Below the pieces are notes generated by a model that searched no databases, was not told the DNA's origin, and saw nothing but the letters and a program-made list of their open reading frames with translations. Both the position numbers and the translations under genes were made by a program. Of a stretch of 64,000 nucleotides of DNA, positions 37,517-42,110 are shown piece after piece (positions within the stretch are counted from its first letter, which is position 1; the number at the start of each line of letters is the position of its first letter). Source of the stretch: Rhizobium viscosum (GTDB taxonomy: Bacteria > Pseudomonadota > Alphaproteobacteria > Rhizobiales > Rhizobiaceae); the NCBI RefSeq assembly GCF_014873945.1, contig NZ_JADBEC010000001.1, forward strand, positions 62,001 to 126,000, in the 5' to 3' direction.

Positions 37517-38619
37517 TCAGCTTGCCAGCATGTTCAGCAGCGAGAGCATGACGCCGGCATCCGGGATCGGCAACACGCCATCGATCTCCGCCGGCAGCAG
37601 ACCGGCGACGGGACCTTTAGTATCGCCGGTCGCCGTGCCGAGCGGCCCGCGAAAACCATGTTTGGCCCAGGCAAGCTCCTGCAGCTTTGAGCTCGTCAGC
37701 ACGTCGACCAGACGTTCGGCCGTTTCGTCCACCACGATCAGCGGATGGGCCGAATAGACGGACGGGCGCGGATAGAGGACGACGGGCTTGGCGCCCTGCC
37801 CCGACTGGATGCGGTTCCATCGGTCGGCATCGGCAAGCGCCCATTCGACGAGTTGATTCTCGTAACCGACTATCATCGGTTCGCCGCCGAGGCCGCCTGC
37901 CAGATACTGATCGAACAGCTTGCCCGACGACGGCGACTTGAAACCCATATTGCGGAAGATCGACTGCACCTTGCCGCCATATTGGGCGAGGTCGTCTGAT
38001 GTCGCGACATTGCCGCTGAAGAGGCTGAGCGCGAGGCCCGAAAACATGAAGCCCGAATTCGACCGGTTCGGATCGGTCGAGACGATACGAGCGCGACCGT
38101 AGAGCGCATTGACGCCAAATTTCGACCAGTCCGTCCGGCAAGGATGGCGTCGAGCAAGGCCTTCAGGTCGAGCTGGTGATGGCCGTCGATCACCGTCACG
38201 AGGCCTGATTTGATCAACCCGTCCACAACAGGCTGCCACGTATACACGACAACGGGCGTATTGAGCATGACCCGGTCATCGCGGATCTTCACGCCGCTCT
38301 GGCGGGCAATATCCACCATGATGGAGGAGGACGGCCAGAGAAATTGCGGGCTCTGCGAAAGCAAGGCCTGTTCGCGCACCATCTCGACGGAGCCAGCGAC
38401 GCGACTGTCGATCGAAAGGCCATAGCCCTTGATAGCGTCGACGACATCGGGATCGGCAAGGAAAGCCTCTTTTTCGCCGCCGATGAAGCCGAACAGCTTT
38501 GTGCGCGTACCCAGCAGGCCCTGCAGTTCCGGCCTGTCGCGGACGGCGAAATAGCCGCCCGTGCCGGCAATACCGGTGGCGAGCAGTCCAACTCCAAAGG
38601 CGCGGCGGGAAAGGGCCAT
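37517..38619 (-). pseudogene. Tat-exported periplasmic binding protein (SBP_bac_11-like), frameshifted
   Basis: Two overlapping frames together give one protein of about 367 residues. The first opens MALSRRAFGVGLLATGIAG, with a twin-arginine signal SRRAFGVG, and continues to LKALLDAILAGR. The second picks up DWSKFGVNALYGRARIVS and runs to LSLLNMLAS. Adding a single G near 38132 (CGGAC to CGGGAC) joins them with no loss. The module resembles the binding domain of the neighbouring vWA lipoprotein (WPSSSIMVD versus WPASSVWVD). Either a recent inactivating deletion or a sequencing error. It starts with a TGATG overlap after the xpaC-like gene. Confidence 0.78.
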
Positions 38620-39236
38620 CAGCGTCCGAGATCCTCTTTGAGCGATGCCTGGATGAGGCGCAGGTCGGTATCGAGCGTGCCAAGCTCAGCATCGACAAGG
38701 CCATCGGCATAGTGAACGAAGGCATCCTCGAGCTTCACCAGCACGGCGCGAACATCCTCCAACTGCCTGATGTCAGGGGCGCGTTTCGCCTCGATCACCG
38801 CAAAGCTCTCGGCGACTTCAGCCGCACGCGGCAGATAGTAGCTGAGGAAGCGGCGTACGGAATTGGCACTTTCCGGCCTCGCCTCCACCTTGCGGAAGAC
38901 ATCGGCGGCGATTTCCACTAGGTGGCGCACGCGCGCTGCCGTCTGCTTGTCAGTGATATCGTCCGCGGTCGTTTCCAGCCTTTGTGCGGCGGGCACAGCC
39001 CCTTCCAGCAATTCTCTCGCGAAGGCAACGCGACCGCGGCCGATCATCTTGATATCGAGACCTTCGAAAAGCCTGCGTGGCGCCAGCAGGAAAACGAGGC
39101 CGGCAAAAACCAGAAGGCCGATAACGGCGGCAATCCAGAACGGCATGCCGGCAGCAAAAGCCAGAACGGGGACGAGAATGGCCGTCACCACTCCCGCCAC
39201 GATCCAGTTGCCGTCATTGCCGAGCCAGTTACCCAT
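38619..39236 (-). CDS. XpaC-like / 5-bromo-4-chloroindolyl phosphate hydrolysis family protein
   Basis: 205 residues from MGNWLGNDGNW. Two closely spaced hydrophobic helices (about residues 11-50) are followed by a soluble helical region with VRRFLSYYLPRAAEVAE, the recognisable motif of the XpaC family. The name comes from a Bacillus plasmid assay and does not state the real function. In Bacillus subtilis xpaC adjoins yaaN, a TelA homolog; here a TelA gene is two genes upstream. The start gives the conserved N-terminus, and it lies 8 nt after the vWA lipoprotein gene. Confidence 0.78.
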   Translation of the reverse strand: MGNWLGNDGNWIVAGVVTAILVPVLAFAAGMPFWIAAVIGLLVFAGLVFLLAPRRLFEGLDIKMIGRGRVAFARELLEGAVPAAQRLETTADDITDKQTAARVRHLVEIAADVFRKVEARPESANSVRRFLSYYLPRAAEVAESFAVIEAKRAPDIRQLEDVRAVLVKLEDAFVHYADGLVDAELGTLDTDLRLIQASLKEDLGR

Positions 39237-39243
39237 GCCGGTC

Positions 39244-40815
39244 CTAGTTATAACCGCGGGCGGTGCGGAACGCTGCCGCAAGGTCCGAGCGACCGTCGAA
39301 GACGCGGGCCGCTGTCGCCGCCGCCAGACTGTCCAGCTGGGTCTTGTCCGCATCGCCGAAGGTAATGCCGAAGATCGGCACGCGTGGTTCCATAGCGTTC
39401 CAATCGCTCATGAAGGCCGCACTTTGGTCATCGGATCTGCCGTCGGTCATGATGATGATCGCCGGCAGATAATTAGACAGATCAGCCGTTTTTGCCATCT
39501 GCTGGAGCGCCCTTTCGGCGCAGGCATACATATTGGTGCCGCCGCCGGCATGCTGGCCGGACACTGCGTTGAGAAGCCCCTGCTGCTCCATCGCATCACC
39601 CGAAGCCGAAAAGATATCGCGGACATTGGCATCGAAGGGAATGACGAAGATGTGGTCGGCCGGCGACCATTGCACCAGCACCTTGCTTGCTTCCTCGGGC
39701 GTGAAGAGGAAACGCATCGCCTGCTGCAGACTGTTCTCGCCGTCCCCCTGCATGGAGCCCGAAAAATCGAGGCAGAGCGCCGTCAGTGACGGTTTGCGAA
39801 GTGCCGCCTGATAGAGCGTGAGTGCCTGACGGATTACCGTTGGTTCCGGCATGCGGATCGCGGTCACCAGTTTGGCCGGATCGAAATTCCAGCTCGGCTC
39901 CGGTTCAGCAGTGACGCCGCCGAGCGGCAGGCGGCGACCGGTTTCGGCAATCTTCTTCTGAACATCGGGCGAGCGCAGATAGGCGAGCAAGTCCTTGAAG
40001 AAGGTCTGGACCTCAGGACCGCGGCCATGATCGACAAAGCCGATTGGTGAATCCGCCATCGCCACGCCATCGGCGGGATAGATGGCGTAAAGCGGCTCCT
40101 TGCCCATACCCGTGAGCTTGTCGTTGGTTTCCTTGATGACCGCCTCATAATTCCACATGGCATCGTAGGTCGTGCCGTTGCTGGCGGAATCCGTATAGAG
40201 GTCGGCGAGCCAGCCCGAAGAGCCGGAGGAGCGCGCGACACCGGCAAGCAGGCTTCGAACGGTGTCCTGAACCGTCTTGTCGTCAAGATCGCCGGGTTCG
40301 ATCACCGGCTTGTTGCCGAGCGCACTGGAGAGCATGGAGAGATAGGCGCTGGCACCGGAGTTCGACTGGGTAGCCGATGTCATCAGAAACTTCATCGAGC
40401 CGCTTTTCACGGCCGCCAGGATATCCTTCATGAAAACATCCTTGCCGACCCAGCCGAACTGCTCGGCCTTCGACTTGCGCACGCCGAGGATGACGGGCGT
40501 CTGCGCTACAGACGTCAGGTCCTTGACCCTGCGTTTGGTATCGAACATGTCGACCCAGACGCTGGAGGCCGGCCAGACGGCGTCCTGCTCGACACCCTGA
40601 TCGCTTTGCAGCGCGAGGCCGATATCGAGCGTGCCTTCATATTTGAAGGAGCAGGTCGCGTGCTTCTCCTTACAGAACTCCTCGATGATCGGCTGCAAGA
40701 CGGTGTTTTCCGAGCCGGAAACGACCGAGAAATTCGGACCGCCGCTGAAAGCATCACAGCCTGCCAACGCAGCGAGACCAGATAGCGCCAGTGCGCAGAG
40801 GAATGATCGGATCAT
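39244..40815 (-). CDS. Lipoprotein with a substrate-binding domain fused to a von Willebrand A domain
   Basis: 523 residues from MIRSFLCALALSGLAALAGC, a lipoprotein signal whose lipobox LAGC ends at Cys20. Residues about 30-330 form a periplasmic binding domain of the SBP_bac_11 type (VWPASSVWVDMF, then SATQSNSGASAYLSML). Residues about 345-520 are a vWA domain with the MIDAS motif DFSGSM and a second conserved TDGRSDD stretch. A GTG start at 40830 overlapping the telA stop is possible, but the ATG gives the proper signal peptide. Probably anchored in the periplasm; partners unknown. Confidence 0.86.
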   Translation of the reverse strand: MIRSFLCALALSGLAALAGCDAFSGGPNFSVVSGSENTVLQPIIEEFCKEKHATCSFKYEGTLDIGLALQSDQGVEQDAVWPASSVWVDMFDTKRRVKDLTSVAQTPVILGVRKSKAEQFGWVGKDVFMKDILAAVKSGSMKFLMTSATQSNSGASAYLSMLSSALGNKPVIEPGDLDDKTVQDTVRSLLAGVARSSGSSGWLADLYTDSASNGTTYDAMWNYEAVIKETNDKLTGMGKEPLYAIYPADGVAMADSPIGFVDHGRGPEVQTFFKDLLAYLRSPDVQKKIAETGRRLPLGGVTAEPEPSWNFDPAKLVTAIRMPEPTVIRQALTLYQAALRKPSLTALCLDFSGSMQGDGENSLQQAMRFLFTPEEASKVLVQWSPADHIFVIPFDANVRDIFSASGDAMEQQGLLNAVSGQHAGGGTNMYACAERALQQMAKTADLSNYLPAIIIMTDGRSDDQSAAFMSDWNAMEPRVPIFGITFGDADKTQLDSLAAATAARVFDGRSDLAAAFRTARGYN

Positions 40816-40826
40816 GGTTTTGCCGG

Positions 40827-41903
40827 TCACGCCTGGGTCATCGCCTTCTTGAGGTCGATCGTCAGCTGTTCCATCTGCTGCTCGGCCTGGGCGCGCTTCT
40901 TGCGGCCCTCCTCCTGCACGCGCAGCACGCCGGTGACGGTGTCGATCAGATCCTGATTGGCCTTGGCAAGCGTCTCCATATCAACGATGCCGCGCTGCGA
41001 CTGCTGCTCGATGGCAATCGCCTGATCCTTCATCATTTCCGAGGCCTGGCGGATCATGTCATTGGTGGCGTCGGTCACCGTCTTCTGCAGGTCGAGGGCC
41101 GATTTCTGCTGGGTAAGACCGAGAAGGATGACCATCTTCTGCTTCCACGCAGGGACCGTCAGCGCCGAGGTCGCCTGCAGATTCTCGATCAATGTTTCGT
41201 CGCCGGCCTGGACGATGCGGATCTGCGGAAGCTGCTGGATGCCGAGTTGGCGGGCCTGCTGCAGATAGAAGATACGCTTTTCCAGCCGGTCGAGCGCCTG
41301 GAGACTGTCCTGATAGGTCTGGGCTTCCAGCATGCCGCCGCCGGGGCCGGAGACCGCGGCGTCGGCGGCGCTCTTCAGCTTCGGCAGCTCGAGCGAGCGG
41401 AAATGCTCGGCGAAGTTCTTGCCTGCCTGCACATAGGCATCGAGCCTTACGATCGACTGTTTCGTCTCTTCATGCAGATCGTCGAGCAGGGCGATGTCGC
41501 GGCGCAGCGTATCCTTGTGGCGGTCGAGCTCCAGGCCGATGCGGTCGATCTGGCCAGCTACGTCTTCGAACTCCTCCTTGAAGCGTTCGAGACGCGCCTT
41601 GGCGGAGAGGAACATGCGGCTCAGGAAACCCTTGTCCTTGAGGGACGCTGGATCGAGGCTCTTCGATTTCAGGATGATGTCGGTCAAAAGCCTGCCGACA
41701 TCGCCGAGATCCTTGTTGCGCACCTCGCGCAGGATCCTGTCGGCATAGTCACTGACGGCCTGCTGCGCGCGGTCGCCGTAGACGGAAATTCCGGCGCGGT
41801 CCGCAATACTGATGGTGTCGGTAATGCGGGCGACTTCGGAGAGATCGGCAGCAACGGGCGGCAGGGCGGCATTCTGAACAGTTGCGAGATCGGTGTCGGC
41901 CAT
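40827..41903 (-). CDS. telA: TelA/KlaA-family toxic anion resistance protein
   Basis: 358 residues from MADTDLATVQN, predominantly alpha-helical and coiled coil. The family signatures SLDPASLKDKGFLSRMFLSA, LERFKEEFEDVAGQID and VPAWKQKMVILLGLTQQKSA are present. TelA proteins were named from tellurite-resistance plasmids, but the chromosomal forms are tied to membrane and stress systems. No membrane segment is seen. First gene of the four-gene cluster; an in-frame ATG at 41933 is an alternative start. Confidence 0.87.
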   Translation of the reverse strand: MADTDLATVQNAALPPVAADLSEVARITDTISIADRAGISVYGDRAQQAVSDYADRILREVRNKDLGDVGRLLTDIILKSKSLDPASLKDKGFLSRMFLSAKARLERFKEEFEDVAGQIDRIGLELDRHKDTLRRDIALLDDLHEETKQSIVRLDAYVQAGKNFAEHFRSLELPKLKSAADAAVSGPGGGMLEAQTYQDSLQALDRLEKRIFYLQQARQLGIQQLPQIRIVQAGDETLIENLQATSALTVPAWKQKMVILLGLTQQKSALDLQKTVTDATNDMIRQASEMMKDQAIAIEQQSQRGIVDMETLAKANQDLIDTVTGVLRVQEEGRKKRAQAEQQMEQLTIDLKKAMTQA

Positions 41904-42110
41904 TCGGGTCGTCTTTCTCGGCTTGTGGTGCAATTGGTCTTACGAATTGCAAACCCATTTTAGCGGCAAATGGATCATCCACTTTCGAGGCTGGGAAACT
42001 CGGCATCCACGCAATACCGGCTCCGCAACGACTCATTTGCGAGCTCACAGTTTAGCGGCACTAGAAATAAGCTTTTATGACAGTCGCTTAAGCTTGCGGC
42101 GAATGCCGCC

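Follow-up and report, generated by a model that had tools for sequence, protein, structure and literature searches.

Results

Organization of the locus

The window, that is, the whole stretch of 64,000 nucleotides of Rhizobium viscosum DNA that was analyzed, carries on its minus strand a compact gene cluster flanked by rpsB and eipB, in a genome of 7.07 Mb in three contigs. The cluster contains telA, a gene for a lipoprotein in which a solute-binding protein (SBP) domain is fused to a vWA domain (SBP/vWA), xpaC, and a gene for a second SBP, referred to here as gene 4 (Table 1). A sequence-only reading of this DNA had placed telA, the fusion gene and xpaC at these positions, and profile searches bore out all three assignments. 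The tight packing that it described is also real. The SBP/vWA gene overlaps telA by 4 nt with a GTG start at 40830 or lies 11 nt away with an ATG start at 40815, the distance from the SBP/vWA gene to xpaC is 7 nt, and xpaC shares 1 nt with gene 4; no gap between neighbors exceeds 11 nt. Its claim of four genes holds in that four genes are present and form a genuine unit, but gene 4 is in two halves in different frames. The broken gene 4, a PHO box and the block deletions described below were absent from that account. telA is the sole PF05816 match in the window's genome, and all four genes show low dN/dS in comparison with four relatives. None of the four proteins matched the known anti-phage defense models of PADLOC at 0.01.

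Table 1. Position and basis of the cluster features in the window.
Feature	Coordinates	Strand	Basis
telA; TelA protein, 358 aa, probably cytoplasmic	40827..41903	-	PF05816 1.7e-90
SBP/vWA lipoprotein gene	39244..40830	-	SBP_bac_11 1.2e-11 + VWA 2.9e-10
Type II solute-binding domain, residues 30-346	39793..40743	-	Structure comparison and conserved loops
vWA domain, complete MIDAS, residues 347-528	39247..39792	-	PF00092 2.9e-10; invariant MIDAS
xpaC, 205 aa	38619..39236	-	PF10112 2.4e-26; hydropathy
Gene 4, encoding a second SBP with a membrane anchor, interrupted by 1-nt deletion	37517..38619	-	Reading frames, intact relatives
Degenerate PHO-box-like site, upstream of telA	42066..42083	-	9/14 positions; first half-site perfect

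Domains and predicted folds

The SBP/vWA protein has 528 residues when read from the GTG and 523 when read from the ATG. In the window its lipobox is LAGC followed by Asp; a lipobox is found in 10 of 12 diverse rows, and Asp or Asn follows the Cys in 8 of these 10. It is known from E. coli that Asp or Asn after the lipobox Cys favors the inner membrane. Carried by a lipoprotein, the vWA domain should be periplasmic. The MIDAS of this domain had been claimed before and proved invariant, with D355, S357, S359, T432 and D463 (D-x-S-x-S, T, D) identical in 36/36 and 12/12 aligned rows. The SBP domain is marked by the conserved loops SNSG (156-159), GSSG (203-206) and WNYE (226-229). In an AlphaFold2 (AF2) model of the protein (mean pLDDT 85.0; the input was 36 rows chosen from loci), the predicted SBP domain aligned with the sulfate-binding proteins 5um2 (VIA-align Z 28.2, rmsd 2.8, 287 aligned) and 1sbp (Z 28.0). 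Sulfate-binding proteins thus led its fold ranking with Z of 26-28, followed by thiamin, glucose-6-phosphate, pyridoxal-phosphate, polyamine and opine binders with Z of 22-25. By hydropathy, XpaC has a long N-terminal hydrophobic stretch, which would fit a membrane hairpin, and a soluble tail.

Neither the halves of gene 4 nor its intact relatives matched a Pfam or NCBIfam family over cut-off, and searches of PDB sequences with gene 4 profiles gave no match in one case and two chance-like matches in another. The AF2 model of an intact relative (the L053 copy; pLDDT 87.8, from 34 rows chosen from loci) was nearest to sulfate- and thiamin-binding proteins, with Z 24.2, rmsd 3.0 and 275 aligned positions, and next to phosphate-ester and ferric binders with Z of 20-22. 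The models assign both the SBP domain and gene 4 to the type II, two-lobed SBP fold. Paralogy of the two binding domains, proposed earlier from short shared motifs, was confirmed by profile alignment (hhalign 98.3%, E 1.6e-14, 24% identity over 293 columns). The proposal that gene 4 is exported by the Tat route fared less well: S/T-R-R is present in 34/34 near-relative rows, but in just 6/8 of a more diverse set, and it is therefore the membrane anchor, not the Tat route, that is conserved.

Gene 4 is broken by the lack of one nucleotide between 38134 and 38135, as judged against seven aligned relatives, and the frame is open in the near relatives L051, L052, L053 and L067. Downstream of the break, dN/dS against four relatives is 0.11-0.14, as compared with 0.07-0.13 for six intact pairs. 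Long-standing decay of the gene was rejected on these values. Because selection after the break resembles that in intact pairs, the break is either recent or a sequencing error.

Co-occurrence and gene order

Co-occurrence in a fixed order, which the sequence-only reading had offered as the check on its cluster, was evident in the named genomes. Among the best 80 of 461 loci found with an SBP/vWA alignment, a set dominated by near relatives, the order SBP/vWA, xpaC, gene 4 was found in 79, L114 being cut by a contig end. telA precedes the three genes in 76 of these 80; two of the misses are contig starts (L111, L115) and two have no detectable telA (L103, L105). Two of the 80 loci hold one gene in pieces, namely gene 4 in L087 and SBP/vWA in L108. 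The overlap between xpaC and gene 4 is preserved too: it is 1 nt in 68 of the 75 four-gene loci and 4 nt in 5, and of the remaining two one has its start 14 nt on and one is unplaceable.

In a sample of the class, searched with E-value limits at which weak distant copies may be missed, TelA was over cut-off in 22/241 genomes and the SBP/vWA protein in 7/241. All seven SBP/vWA carriers had xpaC and gene 4 adjoining and six had telA; in genome G262 the three-gene set and a telA-xpaC pair lie on different contigs. Gene 4 was found in 9/387 class genomes, and the SBP/vWA protein was present in all nine. xpaC was adjacent at 15 of the 19 telA loci that were fetched, out of 23 places over cut-off in the class sample. 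At L037, L039, L040 and L041 no xpaC turned up close to telA; L039, L040 and L041 gave low scores with the cluster-type profile and seem to belong to a different subfamily.

Across the phylum sample, the SBP/vWA protein occurred in 9/299 genomes, two of which, G428 and G544, belong to other classes; within the class of G428 it was detected at 1e-40 in 1/232 genomes, that of G428 itself. Both genomes have the order gene 4, telA, SBP/vWA, small membrane protein; in G218 the series runs SBP/vWA, xpaC, gene 4, telA. These arrangements can all be derived from a single order by cyclic permutation. In G428 and G544 gene 4 is clearly homologous (hhalign 100%). Their protein at the XpaC position had no PF10112 match and reached 86% only in hhalign; it is probably an XpaC homolog. 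Jointly inherited in this way, the four genes almost certainly constitute one unit.

Neighboring genes

Further partners were sought in 27 lineages with gene picking based on codon-position G+C, which recovered telA in 20, SBP/vWA in 24, xpaC in 18 and gene 4 in 26 of them; an earlier, crude picking had found the four known genes in just 12-19 of 24 lineages, along with many antisense ORFs. No other gene family with a fixed place beside the cluster was found in the 27 lineages. ABC ATPase genes occur within the fetched stretch in 8/27 lineages at scattered places, and five further groups, comprising two kinds of ABC permeases, regulators and a glycerophosphodiester-phosphodiesterase-like protein (by eye), occur in 3/27 lineages each. 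As common families at scattered places, these were set aside as partners. Within the operon, which consists of the four genes only, there are no permease and ATPase genes and no histidine kinase or response regulator genes.

Several individual neighbors may be recorded. Genes of nitrate/sulfonate-type ABC importers lie near the cluster in L026 (2616-4632), L110 (1678-3637) and L118 (1639-4335), either a coincidence or a hint of the ligand. A MoxR-type AAA gene of Pseudochelatococcus (L122 14628-15581; PF07726 1.7e-61) stands on the opposite strand some 3.3 kb past the cluster. The telA of G218 is followed by genes for a ZnuA-type zinc-uptake protein (PF01297) and an ABC ATPase (L043 10310-12437).

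Loss of the cluster as a block

In a genus sample of 40 genomes, the SBP/vWA protein is present in 15, and a strong telA match lies at the cluster locus of the same 15. telA was over cut-off in 18/40; the other three are weak matches elsewhere. We read 30 of the 40 eipB loci matched, 9 of them from carriers. At 20 of the 21 non-carrier loci rpsB follows eipB and the cluster is absent, the other locus, L164, ending with its contig. Two of the non-carriers retain deletion scars between eipB and rpsB: in L139 (2311-2913) the beginning of telA is fused to the final codons of gene 4, and in L145 (2528-3032) about 74 codons from the end of gene 4 are left. Because non-carriers join eipB to rpsB without the cluster, two of them with gene 4 remnants, the cluster was lost as a block. 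In another non-carrier, L151 (2335-3412), the gap between eipB and rpsB holds a gene resembling, by eye, that of a pentapeptide-repeat secreted protein.

On a tree of the two neighboring genes eipB and ridA, which may partly reflect local recombination, presence of the cluster changes at least 8 times, 6 of which are forced by starred branches, and carriers cluster no more than they do with shuffled labels. Repeated loss shows that the cluster is dispensable. The cluster telA is broken in two carriers, by a stop in G007 (L004 422-1498) and by a frameshift in G012 (L005 3084-4156), any one of which may be a sequencing error; each of these genomes also has another, distinct telA at a different place.

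A PHO box upstream of telA

A repeat like CTGTCAT-N4-CTGTCAT was found 5' of telA. The conserved PHO half-site of E. coli is CTGTCAT according to a review (PMC4415409). The repeat was scanned for on the coding strand over 250 bp in the window and in 75 named telA loci from the best 80 of 461, with telA starts set 1077 nt before the end of the stop and L100, where telA is cut, left out. At least 11 of 14 positions matched in 50 of the 76 regions, which are related and not independent and were scored with a consensus picked after the site was noticed, as compared with 19/1520 dinucleotide shuffles and 61/4801 other tiles of the same loci. The enrichment was sharper at 12 of 14 or better (29/76 regions, 0/1520 shuffles, 4/4801 other tiles), and the opposite strand of the same regions reached at least 11 in just 1/76.

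The box is unevenly distributed. Scores of at least 12 came from Rhizobium/Neorhizobium, Mesorhizobium, Devosia, Bradyrhizobium, Zavarzinia and alphaproteobacterial records, at varied distances from the start, and 26/76 regions, the window's included, scored below 11. Among the low scorers are many Mesorhizobium (9-10), Pseudochelatococcus and a Caulobacterales record (8), as well as L051, L053 and the window itself (9). The window's own site matches no better than 584 of the 1520 shuffles, which also reach its score, whereas many relatives have 11-13; L132, L133 and L134 have best scores of 11, 10 and 11. With a broken gene 4 and a weak box, the system of the window strain may be impaired. 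Six SBP/vWA loci of the class sample had best scores of 12, 10, 9, 9, 9 and 8, with just one at 11 or more, and the box is therefore mostly unseen outside the rhizobial group. telA loci without SBP genes gave best scores of 7-9 of 14 (11 loci, 400 bp scanned, start positions rough).

The window's genome contains nine sites with at most one mismatch and none for the reversed pattern. One precedes a PstS-like gene (PF12849) and one lies beside a DUF47-PHO4 pair in opposite orientation. A third (L194) precedes a protein that has no Pfam family and looks secreted by eye, and other sites include L197-L202. A link of the cluster to phosphate is likely in part of the family.

Discussion

The TelA and XpaC families are widespread, and no agreed mechanism is known for them. 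Our reading of the cluster is that of an inner-membrane sensor, linked to PhoB in many lineages, whose paired SBPs and MIDAS would signal through XpaC to TelA; we hold it tentatively, at somewhat short of an even chance. The four products would form one inner-membrane signaling complex with the two paralogous type II binding domains on its periplasmic face, one lipid-anchored and fused to the MIDAS vWA domain, the other, from gene 4, held by an N-terminal helix. The ligand of the SBPs is inferred to be an anion, with a tetrahedral oxyanion or a phosphate ester as the likeliest candidates. Among the closest folds, those of sulfate, glucose-6-phosphate, pyridoxal-phosphate and thiamin binders favor such a ligand, whereas those of polyamine, opine and ferric binders speak against it. 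Ligand binding would alter a metal-dependent contact of the vWA domain, the hydrophobic hairpin of XpaC would cross the membrane and relay the signal to TelA, and TelA, on the cytoplasmic side, would adjust the envelope, an output guessed because TelA has a role in nisin tolerance in Listeria. PhoB would probably switch the operon on at low phosphate in many of the Hyphomicrobiales-type genomes examined. A stronger formulation, that this is a phosphate-starvation signaling system with a kinase-free operon, that the paired SBPs are the first identifiable input of TelA/XpaC and that gene 4 founds an SBP family, is possible but doubtful.

Other functions could be built from the same parts. The TelA family name itself recalls resistance to toxic oxyanions of the tellurite type, in which the SBPs would detect or trap tellurite or arsenate, TelA and XpaC would protect the membrane, and the PHO box would reflect entry of the ion via phosphate uptake. 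In one paper, disruption of Listeria lmo1967, a gene of the TelA/YaaN type, is related second-hand to have raised sensitivity to nisin 4-fold and to tellurite 2-fold (PMC12791056), and AioX, a membrane-associated periplasmic arsenite sensor, has a promoter bound by PhoB1 in Agrobacterium (PMC7533571). However, none of the families recurring in at least 3/27 lineages is a reductase, an efflux or a detoxification family, and we consider resistance unlikely to be the function. The PHO box and the folds of transport SBPs would equally suit scavenging, with the two SBPs delivering a source of phosphorus or sulfur to an ABC transporter and TelA/XpaC as accessories. A BPD_transp_1 permease gene lies at most 8 kb from the cluster in 3/27 lineages (G262, L110, L118); given these nearby permeases and the ABC ATPases in 8/27, a transport role therefore keeps a small share of the probability. 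Yet the transporter genes stand at differing distances and on differing strands, none within the four-gene operon, two of the three permease loci include an additional SBP gene (NMT1-like in L026; by eye in L118), and a vWA fusion and membrane tethering are ill-suited to shuttling, which makes scavenging improbable.

The sequence-only reading had left a choice between a membrane-spanning sensor and a chaperone. The former fits the anatomy of the cluster. For the latter, a unit in which the vWA MIDAS and TelA build or check a metal complex, one can cite the complete MIDAS, a single MoxR-type AAA neighbor (L122) and the ZnuA gene adjoining telA in L043, but neither neighbor recurs in at least 3/27 lineages and the vWA domain, being on a lipoprotein, is predicted to face the periplasm; such a metal-dependent assembly or maturation unit is very improbable. 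Here TelA/XpaC are tied to a pair of predicted periplasmic binding domains, in many cases together with a PHO box, and this offers a testable stimulus (phosphate limitation), a testable ligand site and defined partners. Strains that have lost the block beside near-relative carriers are natural controls.

The XpaC-TelA pair as such has been described before. Among the papers listed in searches of the literature, with few subscription papers covered, none was seen to describe this cluster in its title or abstract, and neither the four-part extension nor the gene 4 family nor the PHO box came up. In Bacillus the pair is xpaC-yaaN. In Listeria, lmo1966-lmo1967 is an adjacent XpaC-TelA pair linked to envelope stress (PMC12791056). 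The same two families stand side by side here, the PF05816 and PF10112 genes being adjacent in the window. Bacillus and Listeria have XpaC-TelA alone, whereas the present cluster also has genes for two periplasmic SBPs, one of them carrying a vWA domain, and often a PHO box upstream. The AioX-AioS-AioR system (PMC7533571) offers a precedent for our proposal in its use of a membrane-associated periplasmic SBP as a sensor under PhoB control. AioX signals to a histidine kinase, whereas the operon here is without a kinase and has TelA/XpaC in its place. The type II SBP fold is shared with PDB 6lkg, a 'two-component system protein' that we take to be HptA, the glucose-6-phosphate sensor; 6lkg matched the predicted SBP domain with Z 24.6 and the gene 4 model with Z 21.9. 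Unlike the cluster described here, it has no vWA domain and acts together with a two-component system. Ter-type stress systems, as reportedly described by Anantharaman in 2012, resemble the cluster in that TelA and vWA proteins share one genomic context; those vWA proteins are said to be cytoplasmic, whereas here the vWA domain sits on a lipoprotein.
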